From Leifsonia poae (lineage in GTDB: Bacteria > Actinomycetota > Actinomycetes > Actinomycetales > Microbacteriaceae): DNA of 64,000 nucleotides. A program made the translations under genes and the position numbers. The notes beneath the pieces are model-generated. The model saw only the letters and a program-made list of their open reading frames with translations. It was not told where the DNA came from and did no database searches. Below are positions 56,016-63,906 of the stretch, piece after piece. Position 1 is the first letter of the stretch. Each line of letters begins with the position of its first letter. The stretch spans positions 26,103 through 90,102 of the forward strand of contig NZ_BSEN01000011.1 of assembly GCF_027921845.1 (NCBI RefSeq), written 5' to 3'.

Positions 56016-56103
56016 GGAGAATTCGCCTAGTGGCCTATGGCGCACGCTTGGAAAGCGTGTTGGGTGCAAGCCCTCGGGGGTTCGAATCCCCCATTCTCCG
56101 CCA
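56016..56103 (+). tRNA. tRNA-Ser (GGA), island insertion site
   Basis: The cloverleaf has the acceptor stem GGAGAAT/ATTCTCC, anticodon stem CACGC/GCGTG with loop TTGGAAA (anticodon GGA), a long variable arm, T-loop TTCGAAT, discriminator G and an encoded CCA. The integrase gene just behind its 3' end suggests that the attachment site lies in this 3' part. Confidence 0.96.
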
Positions 56104-56168: not shown

Positions 56169-57359
56169 TCATCGACCGCCCGATTCGGCCCTCCGTGCCC
56201 ACACTTTGCCCACACTTTTCTGATGACCTCCCTCATTGAGGCGCATCGCAACCTCGTCGAGGTCGTCATCGAAGAGGTCAGCGTAGGTGTCGAGTGTCAT
56301 CGCAGCCGACTTGTGGCCGAGCATTCGCTGGACGGCTTTGACGTTCGCGCCGGAGCTGACGGCGAGACTCGCGGCTGTGTGACGGAGGTCGTGAGGAGTC
56401 AATCGCTCAAGCTCAGCTTCGGCAAGCGCGGTCAGGAACCAGGACCGCTTGTTGTTGCTCGCACTCGGCCGACGAAGGAAGCCGCCGTACCGGTCGGCGA
56501 ACACCAGAGCGTCAGGGCCCTTCCCTGCACAGAGACGAGCTAACGGCTCCGAGAGGAAATCGGGGAACGGGACGGAACGCCTCTCCCACGACTTCGGCAC
56601 CCCCTCAACGACGTTCCCGTCGACCTCTGTGGCAGTGTGGTTGATCTCCAGCCGGCGCCGCCTCATCGAGACGTCTCGGACACGCAGGCCGGTGGCTTCT
56701 GCCCAGCGGAGTCCACAGTAGGCCAACACCATGAGGAGCGTCGCCTGCATGTCGGTGTCAGCTGCCTCGGCGAAGCGGATGACCTCTTCGTGGCTTAGAT
56801 ATCTGCGCGCCTTGTTCGAGTGCTTGCGTGGCGAACCGTCGGCGCCGCGGGCGACATTCTTAGCAATGCGGCCGTCCTTCAGTGCGACATCGAGAATGCC
56901 GGCGAGCACGCCGAGCGCACGGAGAACGACGGTGGCCGATCGCGGTCTCGATGCGTCTGCGGTCCATGCGGCACGGGGGTTCGACACTGCCGTCCCTTGA
57001 CCCAACTCGCGGACCCACTGGGCCACAGCGCTGGGTCGGATGGCGCCCACAGCGGCAGTTGCCCACCTCGGCTCGACATAAACACGCCAGGCCGTCTCGA
57101 TAGAGTGGAAGCTCGAGGGCTTCATCGCCTGACGCTTGTTCGCGAGCCAGCTCGGCGCAAGCTCACCTACCGTGATCCGCGCGGCTTGTGGGTCAACGAA
57201 TGAGCCCACCGCCTTGGCCACCTCCACATTCGCGAGGTATAACTCGGCGTCGCGCTTGGTCTTGAATCCACGCTTATCGGTCTGGCGGTGTTCGGGCGTG
57301 CGATAGCGAACGCGCCACCGTCTTCCGGCACTCGTTGCGTAGGGCGTGACAGTTCCCAT
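56169..57359 (-). CDS. Tyrosine-type integrase
   Basis: Site-specific recombinase of 396 residues. It has an N-terminal arm-binding region, a core-binding domain, and the catalytic set Arg218 (CGLRWAEATGL), Lys256, His323 and Arg326 (TPHDLRHTAAS), His349 (LGHKS) and Tyr359 (DTYADLF), so it looks intact. GGAGG lies before the ATG. Its 3' end faces tRNA-Ser, the usual arrangement of a phage-type integrase beside its attachment site. Confidence 0.95.
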   Translation of the reverse strand: MGTVTPYATSAGRRWRVRYRTPEHRQTDKRGFKTKRDAELYLANVEVAKAVGSFVDPQAARITVGELAPSWLANKRQAMKPSSFHSIETAWRVYVEPRWATAAVGAIRPSAVAQWVRELGQGTAVSNPRAAWTADASRPRSATVVLRALGVLAGILDVALKDGRIAKNVARGADGSPRKHSNKARRYLSHEEVIRFAEAADTDMQATLLMVLAYCGLRWAEATGLRVRDVSMRRRRLEINHTATEVDGNVVEGVPKSWERRSVPFPDFLSEPLARLCAGKGPDALVFADRYGGFLRRPSASNNKRSWFLTALAEAELERLTPHDLRHTAASLAVSSGANVKAVQRMLGHKSAAMTLDTYADLFDDDLDEVAMRLNEGGHQKSVGKVWARRAESGGR

Positions 57360-57566: not shown

Positions 57567-58787
57567 GTGTCTTCATACGACGAGTCGTGGCCCGACGCCG
57601 GACCGCCCACTTCCGATGCAGACGCCGCTCGAGGACGGCGGCCTGGATATACCTACCAATCAAAGTCGTTCCCTAACCGAAACTCGCGCTCTCGGGACTT
57701 CGAACAACCGAGCAAGTTCGTCAGTCATATCTTCCTCAATGAGACGCCCGTGTCAGGTGAGTCGCCAGAAAGCGACACCAAGGAGGTCATCGTGACTTCG
57801 GTAAACGGAACCCGCACCCAGATCAAGGCATTGGTCACACGAAGCGAGGGCAATGTTGTGGACCTAGCAATCCAGGTCGTTCCCGCGCGAGGTCCTGCAC
57901 GCGAGGCGATGCGTCTCCGTCGAGATGACGTGACTCGGTTCATCGCGTTCATCGAGGCCCTACGGTTCGTTGATCCGACGACCGGCGAATCTCGTGTGCG
58001 CGTGGACGACGAACTTCTTTCGAAATTTCTTCGCGATCCGGAGTCGGTCAAAGCTGTGTACCGCGAGGATCCCGCTGCACTCCGCGAACTAATTGCCGAA
58101 GACGCCTCAGCAACCGATGTAATCGCTGTCGCCCATCGGCGATCGGCCGTGGCTGAGTTCGAGCGACTACTTAACGACAGCGAACACTTCGAGTCTCAAC
58201 GAGGCGAAAGCAAAGGTCCTGAGTCCGTCTGGCAAGCCTTTTTCGAGAGGAATCCGTGGGTCCTAGGGATCGGACTCTCAGATCAACTCTTCACATCGTT
58301 CGACGAAGACCGTCTCGAGAAGACGGTACTTGGCTCGGATATCGTGGGCCCCGGCAAGCGCGCCGACGCGCTCCTGAAGACAGCTGGTGCAGTGCGGTCT
58401 CTGGTCTTCGCCGAGATAAAGCATCATCGAACACCACTGTTGGGCAAGGAGTATCGGATCGGGAACTACCCAGCGAGCTCTGAACTTTCTGGTGCCGTCG
58501 CGCAGAGTCAAGGAACGGTTCATGCTGCCGTCGAACGAATTGGACATCGCTATCAACAGCGAACTGCAGATGGTTTCGACGTGCCGGGAGACTATCTGTA
58601 CATGGTGCGGCCCCGGAGTTTCGTTGTAGCGGGAGACCTCTCCCAGTTCCGCGACATCGGAGGCGGAATGAACGACCGGATGGTGACCTCCTTTGAACTG
58701 TTCCGCCGAAACACGTTCGAACCCGAGATCATCACCTTCGACGAGCTGCTCGAGCGAGCCAAATGGATCACACAAGCGTCGAGCTAA
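57567..58787 (+). CDS. sduA: Shedu-type DUF4263 anti-phage nuclease
   Basis: A 406-residue protein matching the single-gene Shedu defence family. Residues about 72-135 resemble the Shedu N-terminal domain; the C-terminal DUF4263 domain (about 218-400) opens with WQAFFERNPWVLGIG and contains a PD-(D/E)xK core: Asp267 (KRADALL), Glu283-x-Lys285 (FAEIKHH), and the Gln in AVAQSQ (313). The GTG start follows GGGGTG. Shedu proteins form oligomers that nick DNA upon phage infection. Composition is less GC-biased than the core genes, as expected for an island. Confidence 0.86.
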   Translation: MSSYDESWPDAGPPTSDADAARGRRPGYTYQSKSFPNRNSRSRDFEQPSKFVSHIFLNETPVSGESPESDTKEVIVTSVNGTRTQIKALVTRSEGNVVDLAIQVVPARGPAREAMRLRRDDVTRFIAFIEALRFVDPTTGESRVRVDDELLSKFLRDPESVKAVYREDPAALRELIAEDASATDVIAVAHRRSAVAEFERLLNDSEHFESQRGESKGPESVWQAFFERNPWVLGIGLSDQLFTSFDEDRLEKTVLGSDIVGPGKRADALLKTAGAVRSLVFAEIKHHRTPLLGKEYRIGNYPASSELSGAVAQSQGTVHAAVERIGHRYQQRTADGFDVPGDYLYMVRPRSFVVAGDLSQFRDIGGGMNDRMVTSFELFRRNTFEPEIITFDELLERAKWITQASS

Positions 58788-59181: not shown

Positions 59182-60573
59182 ATGAAGATCTTCATGAGTC
59201 ACAGCAGCCGACAGAAGTTGTTCGTGAAGGCGCTACGCGACCATCTACCGAGTAGTGCTTCGCTGTGGATCGACGAATTCGAATTGAGGGTGGGTGCGAG
59301 CCTCGAGAATGAGCTGGAGACAGCCGTTCGGCAGGGCAGCGATCTCTTCGTTCTGGTCGTCGACCGGGACTCCAACGCCTCGGAGTGGGTGGCGAAGGAG
59401 ATTGACTGGGCCCTTCAACGGGAGCGGGAATCTGGCCAGACTTTCCTGCTCCCGATAGTCATCGAACCGGAAGCCTGGAGCGGAGCGGATCCGAGGATTC
59501 AGCACCGCAAGTACCTGCCTGTCCGTGACTTCACTGACGAGAGCATCGCTGCCGTTGGTCGCAGTCTCACGTCTGAGATATTCGAATGGTTGTCCAACAG
59601 GCTGGACAGCGAACGCACCATATCACCCGGTGAGCTCGAACGCCGCTCGAATGCGGAGTTGCTCAAGACAGCGGACCAACTGACCTCGGATCTCGGGAGC
59701 CTGATCAAGGCGGAACTCCTACCGTATCGAGCTAACAATCCCATTGCTCTCACGGACCTATTGGCCGCCCTGCGTGGCAAGCGGTCCATCGATATCACTG
59801 ACGAGGCGGAGCTTTACGGCGTACTTGAGCGCCTCAGCTCACTACATCGATTGAATGGCGTTGAGTTCGACGACGAGTATGCCTACTTAGAGCGCGAAAA
59901 CTACTCCTACAAGGCGGACTTATATGTCGCCATCAAAAGGCAGATCGCGCGCCGCGTGGCCAGGGAGATCCACCCCGGAATGACGATCGCCATCGACGGC
60001 GGCTCCACGGTTCAACCGGTTGTTGACGTCATCATTCGGCGCCTGCGCACCGGTTCCCTTCAGCAACTGAGCGTAATCACGAATTTCATACCCGCCGCGG
60101 CGAAACTTCTCGAGGAACTCAGCTCGCTGGGCGTCGGTGATCACGACCGACTGGCCCAGGTCTTTATGCTCGGGGGCTATTCCCGACCGGTGTCATTGAC
60201 CACGGTCCCGCTCGACTTCGCGAACAGCGATGAACTCCTTTCCAGCCCGGCCGAGGAGTACAACCGCGTGCTCGAAGTCACTGGGCCCATCGACATCGCC
60301 TTCCTCGGAGCGAACGGCACCTACGGTAAGACGGGCCTTGGCACTCGTAACCCGTTCGAGACGAGCGCCAAGCGATGGTTCGTGAGCAACGCCAAGGAGC
60401 GCTTTGTGCTTATGGACCCTTCGAAGCTATCGATCCAACAACAGGTCCCCTTTGCGCTGTTCGACGACGGTCTGAAGATCGTCACCGGCGAGACACCGGA
60501 AGACCAGGAGAGCCTGCGTCGCTTTGCCGAGCTTGTCGAACCGACAGCGTCGACGCTGGAGATCGTCCAATGA
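59182..60573 (+). CDS. TIR domain fused to a DeoR-type sugar-phosphate sensor domain
   Basis: A 463-residue protein. The N-terminal TIR domain (about 1-137) begins MKIFMSHSSRQK, has the BB-loop DEFELRVGAS, and a candidate catalytic Glu73 in SEWVAKE, as in NAD-cleaving TIRs. A middle part (about 150-245) may contain a winged helix. Residues about 248-445 match the DeoR C-terminal domain: IDGGSTVQPV (271-280), ITNF, MLGGYSRP, FLGANGTYGKTGLGTRNP and MDPSKLS. That domain binds phosphorylated sugars in transcription factors. A typical DeoR DNA-binding domain is not evident. The ORF overlaps the HAD gene by four bases (ATGA). Confidence 0.85.
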   Translation: MKIFMSHSSRQKLFVKALRDHLPSSASLWIDEFELRVGASLENELETAVRQGSDLFVLVVDRDSNASEWVAKEIDWALQRERESGQTFLLPIVIEPEAWSGADPRIQHRKYLPVRDFTDESIAAVGRSLTSEIFEWLSNRLDSERTISPGELERRSNAELLKTADQLTSDLGSLIKAELLPYRANNPIALTDLLAALRGKRSIDITDEAELYGVLERLSSLHRLNGVEFDDEYAYLERENYSYKADLYVAIKRQIARRVAREIHPGMTIAIDGGSTVQPVVDVIIRRLRTGSLQQLSVITNFIPAAAKLLEELSSLGVGDHDRLAQVFMLGGYSRPVSLTTVPLDFANSDELLSSPAEEYNRVLEVTGPIDIAFLGANGTYGKTGLGTRNPFETSAKRWFVSNAKERFVLMDPSKLSIQQQVPFALFDDGLKIVTGETPEDQESLRRFAELVEPTASTLEIVQ

Positions 60574-61406
60574 ACAGACTCCATATGCTGGCCCTCGACA
60601 TCGATGGGACATTGATCGGATCTGACAAGAAGATCCCGTCCTTCACCGGGCAAGAGATCCGACGCGTCACGGCGGACCATGCGGTGCACATCGTGCTCAT
60701 CACAGCGCGTGGTCCACAATCAACTCGAATTATCGAGGAGGCCCTAGGCGTGGAATGTTCCTACGCCACGTACGGGGGTTCCCTTGTGTGGGCTCGCAAC
60801 GACGACGGCGGCTTCACCACATTGGGCGAGACACCGCTTGAATTCGGCGATGTGAGGACGTTTGTGGAAGAAGGCCAGCGGCTAGATGTGCACATTGGCG
60901 TCTACACGCGCAACGACTGGATAGTTAACAAACTCGACTATTGGGGACTACGCGAAGCGCGAAACACATCTATCTGGCCGACCCTTGTCAGCCCTGCACT
61001 TGTGGAGTGGAGCGAGTCCGAGGAACCCGTGTTCAAGATCATGTTCCGCGGCGACGGCGACCAGTTAACCAATCTCGAGAAAATTCTGCGGGCACGGGAC
61101 GCAGAGGCGTTCATTCACCGTATGCCGCATGTCATCGAGATTGTGTCTGCGCACGCGGTAAAACTGCCGGCGGTTGCCTCGCTGGCAAACTATCTCGGGT
61201 ACGAACTCGGCGAGATCATGGCCTTTGGTGACAGCCTCTCCGATGTGGAAATGCTTGAGCACGTGGGCGTCGGCGTACTAATGGGCAATGCCGCCAAATC
61301 CGTCCAGGCCTCCCATCACGTCGAGCGCACGCTTTCGAATGATGAGGACGGAATCGGAGTGATGCTTCGTAAGCACTTTCCAACAACAGCACCGTTCCGA
61401 ACATAG
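60570..61406 (+). CDS. Cof-type HAD-superfamily phosphatase, partner of the TIR protein
   Basis: A 278-residue hydrolase of the Cof (type IIB cap) subfamily, which dephosphorylates sugar phosphates and related metabolites. Motif I is LDIDGTL (Asp10, Asp12), motif II is LITARG (Thr45), motif III Lys198, motif IV FGDSLSDVEM (Asp221, Asp225). The start ATG overlaps the TIR stop, so the two proteins are made together. Downstream (61407-61631) no gene is seen. A role in clearing the DeoR-domain ligand or a TIR product is inferred. Confidence 0.88.
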   Translation: MNRLHMLALDIDGTLIGSDKKIPSFTGQEIRRVTADHAVHIVLITARGPQSTRIIEEALGVECSYATYGGSLVWARNDDGGFTTLGETPLEFGDVRTFVEEGQRLDVHIGVYTRNDWIVNKLDYWGLREARNTSIWPTLVSPALVEWSESEEPVFKIMFRGDGDQLTNLEKILRARDAEAFIHRMPHVIEIVSAHAVKLPAVASLANYLGYELGEIMAFGDSLSDVEMLEHVGVGVLMGNAAKSVQASHHVERTLSNDEDGIGVMLRKHFPTTAPFRT

Positions 61407-61631: not shown

Positions 61632-62516
61632 TTAGCTAGCGCGCTCCTTCTCTTCATGAGCTCCGATCTCGTCGAGGAGGGCTTGCGACTCAATCAAGAA
61701 CGGGCGATTCGGTGAAAGGGTCAGGTCGTCCCGCGAAACCAATGCACGAAACTCCGTCACGATATCTCGCTGCGTGTACTCACAAACGGCGACCCATGTG
61801 TCGGCCAACCTTACGAGAATCGCGGCCGACACGGCGAGCCGGCCTCGCGCGAACACGATGCGCCCGCGATCATCTGGTCCTAGCTCCACCGCCTCCTGGT
61901 GCTGAGCGAGTCCCGCATGGGCGATATCGCTAAGCGCTCCATACAGCTGTCCGGTTCCAGGCACCAGCTTCTTGAGCTGATTGATGGAATACGAGGCACT
62001 CACTGCATCGATCTCATCCAGAGACGAGAGCTTTGATGCTGCGAGCGCCCAAGCTATCTGCTCAAGGATCTGACGCGAGATCGTGTCGCCCTCAATGTTC
62101 AGGCCCAGCCGATAAAGGATGTGCGCAGCACGAAACCCTGAGTCGAGTCTCTGCAACGCGACGGCAGCCGCGAATGCTCCATAGTTTTCACCTTCGGTAA
62201 ACTCTCCCATCGAGTTGAGCGTCCGACGCATGTGATCTCTCGACGCGAAGTAAGCCCTCAGATATAGCTCGGCTGCGGTGGGCTTAGCCGGCGCTTCGTC
62301 GTGGGTGTACGTGCGTCGCGCATAGTCAAGGCTGCTCAGGCCCATGGCGCTCGCAATCGCGGCCGCTCGCAAGTTGCGCGGCAGCGATGTGTTGCGCCAC
62401 CGCGCCGAGTAGACAACGAAACCACCGACCGGGATCGGGAACGAATCGAACCCTTCGAGAGTGTCGAGGAGCTGGTCGTGAAGCTTCAACTCAACGGGAT
62501 CAACAGATTTCGCCAT
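61632..62516 (-). CDS. Hypothetical helical protein (island)
   Basis: A 294-residue protein, not recognised. It is largely alpha-helical with blocks AELYLRAYFASRDHMRRTLN, HILYRLGLNIEGDTISRQILEQIAWALA and FARGRLAVSAAILVRLADTWVAV, reminiscent of HEPN/DUF5677-like folds, but no catalytic motif is certain. The ATG at 62516 has TACGGT seven bases upstream and AGGGA close by; the frame upstream is less convincing. It converges with the HAD gene across 225 empty bases. Confidence 0.6.
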   Translation of the reverse strand: MAKSVDPVELKLHDQLLDTLEGFDSFPIPVGGFVVYSARWRNTSLPRNLRAAAIASAMGLSSLDYARRTYTHDEAPAKPTAAELYLRAYFASRDHMRRTLNSMGEFTEGENYGAFAAAVALQRLDSGFRAAHILYRLGLNIEGDTISRQILEQIAWALAASKLSSLDEIDAVSASYSINQLKKLVPGTGQLYGALSDIAHAGLAQHQEAVELGPDDRGRIVFARGRLAVSAAILVRLADTWVAVCEYTQRDIVTEFRALVSRDDLTLSPNRPFLIESQALLDEIGAHEEKERAS

Positions 62517-62604
62517 GTTCCCTACCGTATTGTCACCCACTGAGCCGCCCCGGCTCCCACGCTCAGCCTGGCTGACCTGGACGCGACAACTCATTGACGG
62601 CAGG

Positions 62605-63174
62605 TCACTTCCGATCAGTCGCGGAGCCTCCGGGGACGTAACGCTCGGTTTCCCTGAGCCAGGCGTCGAAGTCTGGGACTTTGACCTTGTCTGCCACGCG
62701 CGCATCGGAATCGCGCCAGCGGCGGATCGAGTCTGTGACGACGTCTACGAAGTCGATTGCGTACGTTGTCCAGCGGTAGTTGTAGTCGGCCATTCCGTCG
62801 CTATCGTCATCGCCGCTTCTCCAATGGTCGACGAAAGACAACGCGGTTGCTTCGCCGATCGCGTAGCGAAGGCTCCGCTTCACGTGCCGCAAGCGCGGGG
62901 GGAGCCGGTGTCGCGCATCGTCGAAGGCGTCGTAGGTGGCCTCGATCGTTGCCCGCCACACTGACACGTCCCGCGTGTGCTCCGCAGATCGCAAGAGGGC
63001 CTTGAGATCTGCGAGTCGCTCGATCAGGAGGTTGGCCGTGCTTCGACGCAACTCGTTCGCCTCGGCGCGCTCTCGCTGGCGCGATCCGAATCGTGCGCTC
63101 AGGTATGCCCCGACGGAGGCAGCGAACGTACTGCCGATAACAGTCGTGAGCATGCCCGGGTAGTCCATCTCCAT
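62605..63174 (-). CDS. Hypothetical single-pass membrane protein (island)
   Basis: A 189-residue protein with one N-terminal helix (PGMLTTVIGSTFAASVGAYLSARFG), a basic coiled-coil stretch (RQRERAEANELRRSTANLLIERLADL) and a soluble helical C-terminus. Not recognised. The start at 63174 is the first ATG ahead of the membrane segment; further upstream codons would need TTG. It lies 88 bases from the previous gene on the same strand, so they may be co-transcribed. Confidence 0.6.
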   Translation of the reverse strand: MEMDYPGMLTTVIGSTFAASVGAYLSARFGSRQRERAEANELRRSTANLLIERLADLKALLRSAEHTRDVSVWRATIEATYDAFDDARHRLPPRLRHVKRSLRYAIGEATALSFVDHWRSGDDDSDGMADYNYRWTTYAIDFVDVVTDSIRRWRDSDARVADKVKVPDFDAWLRETERYVPGGSATDRK

Positions 63175-63906
63175 ATTGGAAGTATTGCCCACGATTGCAA
63201 CAGAGTCAGTCAACTTCGTGTGGCGCCTCTTCTCTGCCGAACAATACGGTCGGCACATGGAACAGACTGTTACGGCCGTCAAGAACCCGACGGAGTCTTA
63301 ACTGCGATCCGAGGTAGGGCGCATGAGCCGAGACTGGGTGCTTGTCAGTACTACTCAGAGCTCGCCGAGTGAGCCGCTTTATTTGTTGTTCTGGCGTCGC
63401 ATCCAACACTGATTAATGCGTTCGGAGCGACTCTGGCCGTGATGTCGGCTGCCTGAGTAACCGTGTCGGCCTCATCGCAGGGGCGTTCTCGCGACGCGTG
63501 GAGATCAGGGACCTGCTGGTCCTGTGCGACTCACCCACGCATTGCCCCAAATTCGAAGCCGAGATGCCGCCGATTTCTAGCACCTGCCTGCGATGATCGT
63601 GATCAACGATGAAGCGCCAGCGCGTGTGCGCTTGAGCGCACGTGACAGCGTTACTTGCAAGCTGGTGCCTTCGCCGCGGTGGAGGGCGTGGGATTCGAAC
63701 TCTATTCGTGCCCCGGTTGGGAAGCAGTCGAGTGCCGAAATCCGCGGATAATCAACGTTCTTCGCCTCCACTTGACCTTGTCGGAACTCCTACGACCTCA
63801 CTCAGTTGTGCGCAAAATGTGCGCAAATTAACGTCCAGCGATACCCGGATCGCTTGGCTCTTCCGTCGCGGTAGCCGATCCCTCAGTGAGCGGCTCTAGG
63901 GTCCCT
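63175..63906. other. Gap with no convincing gene
   Basis: About 730 bases in which open frames are short, overlap one another and show no family. The only recognisable item is a fragment of a tRNA-Ser 3' end at 63681-63700. The region looks like decayed island sequence or a junction. Confidence 0.5.
63681..63700 (-). other. tRNA-Ser (TGA-type) 3' fragment, candidate attachment-site remnant
   Basis: Minus-strand GTTCGAATCCCACGCCCTCC equals the T-loop and acceptor end expected of tRNA-Ser(TGA), but the rest of a tRNA is absent and no CCA follows. Such 20-base remnants are typical of att sites left by island insertion. Confidence 0.5.

Follow-up and report, generated by a model that had tools for sequence, protein, structure and literature searches.

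The 64,000-nucleotide stretch of Leifsonia poae DNA analysed here (the window; contig NZ_BSEN01000011.1, positions 26,103 to 90,102 of the forward strand) carries a gene pair of an apparently new architecture, in which a TIR domain is joined to a DeoR-type sensor domain (DeoRC) and followed by a gene for a metabolic enzyme. The first gene encodes a 463-amino-acid TIR–winged helix–DeoR-type sensor protein (59182..60573, + strand), and the second, which overlaps it by ATGA, a 278-amino-acid HAD-IIB (Cof-like) phosphatase (60570..61406, + strand). Compared at the sequence level, the family to which the pair belongs is made up of one sensor, two TIRs and two downstream enzyme types. We propose, in a judgement that is evenly balanced between acceptance and doubt, that the pair is an immune switch gated by a sugar monophosphate, with the phosphatase holding the ligand below the threshold.

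In the Pfam search, the 463-amino-acid protein matched both TIR_2 (5.6e-17, residues 3-119) and DeoRC (3.5e-19). The TIR domain covers residues 1-140 (59182..59601, + strand) and includes the Glu73 codon (59398-59400, + strand), and in the alignment Glu73 pairs with a Glu of the AbTir chain which we take to be the catalytic Glu of AbTir. The protein has the TIR fold and the conserved catalytic Glu by which TIR NADases are recognised, and it is predicted to destroy cellular nicotinamide adenine dinucleotide (NAD). Residues 157-245 (59650..59916, + strand) form a winged-helix-like unit without the DeoR DNA-recognition motif, which was called from the order of elements in the structure model and not by a fold match. 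The DeoRC sensor domain, i.e. the domain that marks DeoR transcription regulators, follows at residues 246-462 (59917..60567, + strand) and contains a stretch (residues 302-330; 60085..60171, + strand) with a family-specific 10-residue insertion. The original prediction of a TIR domain with a candidate catalytic Glu fused to a DeoR sensor was thus borne out within one open reading frame with Glu73 kept, and the lack of a TIR fold, named beforehand as one ground on which it should be given up, was not seen. The winged helix between TIR and sensor, and the loss of its DNA-recognition motif, go beyond that description.

The first list of relatives consisted of 26 proteins, including that of the window, and 24 of these held both Pfam domains, which ruled out an artefact of the window. 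The final aligned set comprised 67 TIR–DeoRC proteins, 65 from the protein database (window's included) together with those of loci L003 and L004, and this number ruled out a chance fusion. Of these fusions, 40 belong to group 1 (the window type) and 27 to group 2, which came from a search seeded with a more distant locus; a profile search added further members. Outside the 67 were left the truncated or single-domain proteins P0021, P0028, P0029, P0030, P0036, P0058 and P0081, as well as P0083 and the split gene of locus L007. Sources of the fusion include Gordonia bronchialis, Gordonia araii, Mycobacterium sp. 1274761.0, a Fimbriimonadaceae, metagenome-assembled genomes of a Thermoanaerobaculia and a Flavobacteriaceae (the latter L003), and a prophage contig (L004), with a split copy in Angustibacter sp. 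Root456 (G081).

The catalytic-type Glu was E in all 65 alignment rows that include the TIR, and likewise in L003 and L004. For the sensor, the fusions were compared with 76 ordinary DeoR proteins as returned by the searches (63 rows from the profile search, seven from the distant-locus search, and six from fetched loci), leaving out P0099 and P0101, which show an odd architecture with a TIR and a ribosomal L7/L12 domain (PF00542) on a single chain. Residues K252, G274 and K415 were identical in 67/67 fusions and 76/76 ordinary DeoRs, and D272 and S275 were present in all 67 fusions. N378 and K397 were likewise found in 67/67 fusions, versus 14/76 and 17/76 ordinary DeoRs, respectively. Because these sensor residues are kept, and N378 and K397 are fixed in the fusions, the sensor pocket appears to be alive and somewhat specialised. 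The spacer between two anchor motifs was 29 residues long in 66 fusions and 27 in one, against 18-20 residues in 76/76 ordinary DeoRs; judged from the alignment, the 10-residue insertion is a marker of the fusion sensor.

The motif T-[IVAL]-R-[RTKN]-[DH], which we take to be the recognition motif of the DeoR winged helix, was absent from 67/67 fusions and present in 64/76 ordinary DeoRs, and a working DNA-binding regulator was rejected on this ground. A transcription regulator that contacts DNA through its DeoR part and has the TIR merely as an aid to oligomerisation would agree with the winged-helix-like unit that both groups are predicted to have between the TIR and the sensor, but it is the least probable of the readings considered, given the missing motif and a catalytic-type Glu that is kept in 65/65 rows and that a scaffold would not need.

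On the basis of phylogenetic trees, the sensor and the TIR have different histories. The sensors of 30 fusions formed one branch apart from the 76 ordinary DeoRs (support 97/97, tree without the insertion); sensor trees took 28 and 30 fusions, those of the 30-fusion tree being mostly a random draw. Moreover, the sensor profiles of the two groups cross-scored 90-156 bits, when ten ordinary DeoRs reached only 19-72 bits. In the TIR tree (17 group 1, 12 group 2 and 17 other TIRs), groups 1 and 2 were located in separate parts, and forcing both groups' TIRs into one clade was rejected (approximately unbiased test, p-AU 0.0005), which ruled out a single origin of the entire fusion; the 17 other TIRs are those brought up by the searches, and several branches of this tree are weak. 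P0029 and P0083 clustered with group 1, and P0099 with group 2. In P0083, this group 1-like TIR shares a chain with PF04073, presumably a YbaK-type deacylase. Among the 106 proteins from the profile search, the Pfam lists showed no effector domain other than TIR next to DeoRC.

The product of the downstream gene in the window matched Pfam Hydrolase_3 (4.8e-40) and scored above the cut-off of NCBIfam HAD-SF-IIB, and the motifs of HAD-IIB phosphatases (DxDGT, motif II T/S, motif III Lys, motif IV acidic pair) were present as DIDGT at 10 (opening with Asp10), LITAR at 43, KLPAV at 198, and GDSLSD, the last spotted by eye and not by pattern search. The Cof-type phosphatase of the original prediction, overlapping by ATGA, was therefore recovered as a HAD-IIB protein starting at 60570, with the Cof-subfamily model itself (2e-34) remaining below its cut-off at 119 of 137 bits. 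A HAD or a PfkB gene came next in four of the five loci with readable neighbours. In group 1, the HAD gene was found in the window and in prophage contig L004, where the TIR–DeoRC and HAD pair is situated directly after tail genes; the fusion proteins of the two loci are 33% identical and their HADs 29% identical (E 1e-36), when the sole other match to the window HAD within its own genome had an E-value of 1.4e-8. Against plasmid records, the best score of the window HAD among the matches listed was 100 bits, versus 119 bits for the HAD of L004, figures which come from different programs and were not used as proof. In group 2, a PfkB gene with an ATGA overlap takes this place in Gordonia araii (L012) and Angustibacter (L007). 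These PfkBs are 47% identical to each other, and are nearest to hexose kinase and 1-phosphofructokinase models, below the cut-offs of these. Accordingly, the suggested search for co-occurrence gave a divided answer: both domains recur as a family and the HAD also accompanies the prophage copy, but group 2 has PfkB instead and L003 has neither enzyme within its 21 kb.

Two of these neighbourhoods contain further genes. In Gordonia araii (L012:1046-4692), the TIR–DeoRC and PfkB genes are preceded by genes for a DUF5682 and a VWA/CoxE protein, an arrangement reminiscent of MoxR-VWA conflict systems. In Angustibacter (L007:11527-16270, reverse strand), an apparent three-gene operon encodes a RyR-domain protein (PF02026, 4e-12), the split TIR/DeoRC, and the PfkB (ATGA overlap). 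The RyR gene ends directly before the TIR frame, with a 4-base overlap if the GTG start is used and an 11-base gap to the next ATG. By analogy with phage RyR-domain proteins, which cleave or sequester the cyclic ADP-ribose (cADPR) made by TIRs (PMC13232231), the RyR gene would fit an enzymatically active TIR; this is one locus, and TIR and sensor are split there.

The exchange of partner enzymes bears on what they may remove. The original prediction had left it open whether the phosphatase removes the ligand or an ADP-ribose-like product, and PfkB in the place of HAD favours the ligand and speaks against the product. Clearance of the TIR reaction product, by which the phosphatase would protect the cell after firing, could account for the tight coupling of the TIR and HAD genes, the more so as TIR products are nucleotide sugars and the Angustibacter RyR-domain gene could handle cADPR. 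We nevertheless consider it distinctly unlikely, since the hexose-kinase-like PfkB of group 2 occupies the same place with no obvious route to clear ADP-ribose, and since the function-level relatives of the HAD, all below cut-off, act on small phosphates (such as sugar phosphates, pyridoxal phosphate, or hydroxymethylpyrimidine pyrophosphate, HMP-PP).

In the mechanism that we favour, the ligand of the DeoRC sensor would be a sugar monophosphate, because the HAD-IIB phosphatase and the 1-phosphofructokinase-like PfkB could both consume one. The sensor would keep the TIRs apart until the ligand, which infection would raise, exceeds the clearing capacity of the enzyme; ligand binding may then rearrange the TIRs into an active assembly, upon which NAD would be cleaved and the infected cell would stop before the phage can spread. 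As a chemical antitoxin, the partner enzyme would eliminate the trigger instead of the toxin and so set the threshold. The same logic of a ligand-erasing partner, without TIR, is seen in the published FruR-FruK case (PMC10765703): fructose-1-phosphate disrupts promoter binding by FruR, a DeoR-type regulator, and induction is raised when FruK is lost. The pairing of the genes does not by itself tell in which direction a reaction runs, and the partner kinase or phosphatase might instead make the signal by turning an infection-linked precursor into the sensor ligand. Such a role is very unlikely, since the kinase attaches a phosphate where the phosphatase takes one off, making a common product improbable, and the FruR-FruK precedent (PMC10765703) is one of ligand removal.

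Of the earlier model, a sensor-gated TIR with a phosphatase clearing ligand or product, the architecture, the Glu, the sensor motifs and the mobile setting were supported, and the phosphatase turned out to be only one of two partners. The wider picture is put forward more tentatively, at somewhat less than an even chance: a single specialised sensor, which would descend from a sugar regulator and have abandoned DNA, would have been armed with TIRs of two separate lineages and paired with two opposite ligand-erasing enzymes. Phage attack would then be sensed as a rise of a central-carbon metabolite, and NAD would be burnt in response.

Several observations weigh against the gated switch. Neighbours could be read at only five loci, of which L007 has its TIR and sensor divided between two reading frames. 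L003, a relative with 36% identity, has no HAD or PfkB match in its 21 kb, and the partner enzyme is therefore not needed everywhere. Neither HAD nor either PfkB reaches any function-level NCBIfam model; those nearest to the HADs, all below cut-off, include not only sugar-phosphatases but pyridoxal and HMP-PP phosphatases too. The structure model of the window protein is less sure in the first 40 residues (block pLDDT, i.e. predicted local distance difference test, 53-84). Finally, the plasmid and phage records searched gave only partial matches and no full-length TIR–DeoRC relative.

The fusion is rare. Two pattern-limited scans, covering 84,980 species, found one locus, and whole-genome searches returned it in 2/99, 1/396, 1/296, 1/401, 0/59, and 2/396 genomes, counts which include the own genome where it matched, and for which the large searches scored only four or five candidates per genome. 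The 59 Gordonia genomes (0/59) did not include the Gordonia bronchialis copy P0022. No second full-length viral locus was found by the searches, L008 being a partial DeoRC match. The sparse occurrence of the fusion across several phyla suggests that it has spread horizontally.

In the window, the pair is located on an island next to tRNA-Ser (56016..56103, + strand), the likely integration site. The island has a tyrosine integrase (56169..57359, - strand; Pfam Phage_integrase 9e-23) and the neighbouring defence gene Shedu SduA (57567..58787, + strand; PADLOC 9.4e-118), which ends 394 bp before the TIR–HAD pair and is probably not part of it. The GC content drops from ca. 0.69 in the preceding DNA to ca. 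0.58 in the island, and the tRNA island beside Shedu was hence described correctly from the outset. Downstream of the HAD gene, two overlapping open reading frames (357 and 225 amino acids) on the reverse strand at 61632-63282 had no Pfam or PADLOC match.

The tRNA-Ser region was present in all 28 genomes of the genus searched (window's included), and 6 to 8 kb downstream of it G007 and G008 carry a copy of the tRNA end. Contig C9, from the same genome as the window, repeats the last 28 bases of tRNA-Ser exactly. The C9 end beside this copy is similar to the far end of the island in G007, the near end of which is in turn similar to the integrase end of the window; the island with Shedu and the TIR pair may therefore continue on C9, the contigs being unjoined. 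The DNA beyond the C9 copy had no match to the stretches of the three relatives compared. The candidate right island end (L052:1-15671, on G000:C9) has conjugation-like genes before the 28-base copy, a reading made by eye; the Pfam search returned a single match to EccE and a weak one to PrgI.

The mobile setting invites another explanation, in which the TIR fusion is an addiction toxin checked by the enzyme and serves to maintain the island or prophage rather than to defend against phage. The integrative element of the window and the position of the L004 copy directly after prophage tail genes would suit it. Nonetheless we find it unlikely, as the neighbouring gene is the defence gene Shedu, no partner enzyme was found within the 21 kb of L003, and mobile elements carry true defence genes too, so that the setting is not decisive.

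Comparison with known defence families was carried out with PADLOC 2.0.0 on five proteins of the 57.5-63.3 kb region, and with Pfam on six island proteins. All nine PADLOC matches of the TIR–DeoRC protein end by residue 117, i.e. within the TIR part, and no PADLOC 2.0.0 model spans both TIR and DeoRC. Apart from SduA and the partial TIR matches, the five proteins gave only a weak CARF match (0.011) on the Shedu protein. Searches of the literature, with most subscription journals outside it, turned up no earlier description of TIR with a DeoR sensor, in line with the novelty suggested in the original prediction. As far as searched, the TIR effector is already known, and the sensor class and the trigger-erasing enzyme are new. 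The triggers known for TIR immune proteins include nucleic acids, nucleotide signals, and proteins of phages; a sugar-phosphate-gated TIR, if real, would add host metabolism as a new class of trigger, and the trigger-erasing enzyme would be a new control part of TIR immunity. The exchange of phosphatase and kinase makes the ligand question directly testable, in that the true ligand would be expected to bind the sensors of both groups and to serve either enzyme as substrate.

With Thoeris, the window protein shares a bacterial TIR with Glu, weakly matching ThsB models (best 2e-4), but its TIR and sensor form one chain and the sensor is DeoRC; PADLOC, run on five neighbouring proteins, found no ThsA-type effector. 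SPARTA (short Argonaute plus TIR-APAZ) differs in that the sensor of the window protein is a metabolite-type domain, and neither an APAZ domain nor a short Argonaute gene was found among the island proteins scanned by Pfam (six) and PADLOC (five). TIR-SAVED and TIR-STING likewise fuse a small-molecule sensor to TIR, and the PADLOC SAVED_TIR model matched the window protein over the TIR part only (2e-9), but the sensor fold here is of the DeoR/ribose-phosphate-isomerase type and the partner is HAD or PfkB. As for cyclic-oligonucleotide-based antiphage signalling systems (CBASS), the sensor is DeoRC and not SAVED or STING, and no cyclase was present among the five proteins scanned. In the GlcR-PhoC operon of Bacillus subtilis, a DeoR-type regulator is followed by a HAD-type sugar-phosphate phosphatase, but there GlcR is a transcription regulator without TIR. 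FruR-FruK operons, in turn, have a DeoR-type sensor gene followed by a PfkB-type kinase consuming its ligand (PMC10765703), whereas the fusion has a TIR in front, a lost DNA-recognition motif, and a 10-residue insertion in the sensor.
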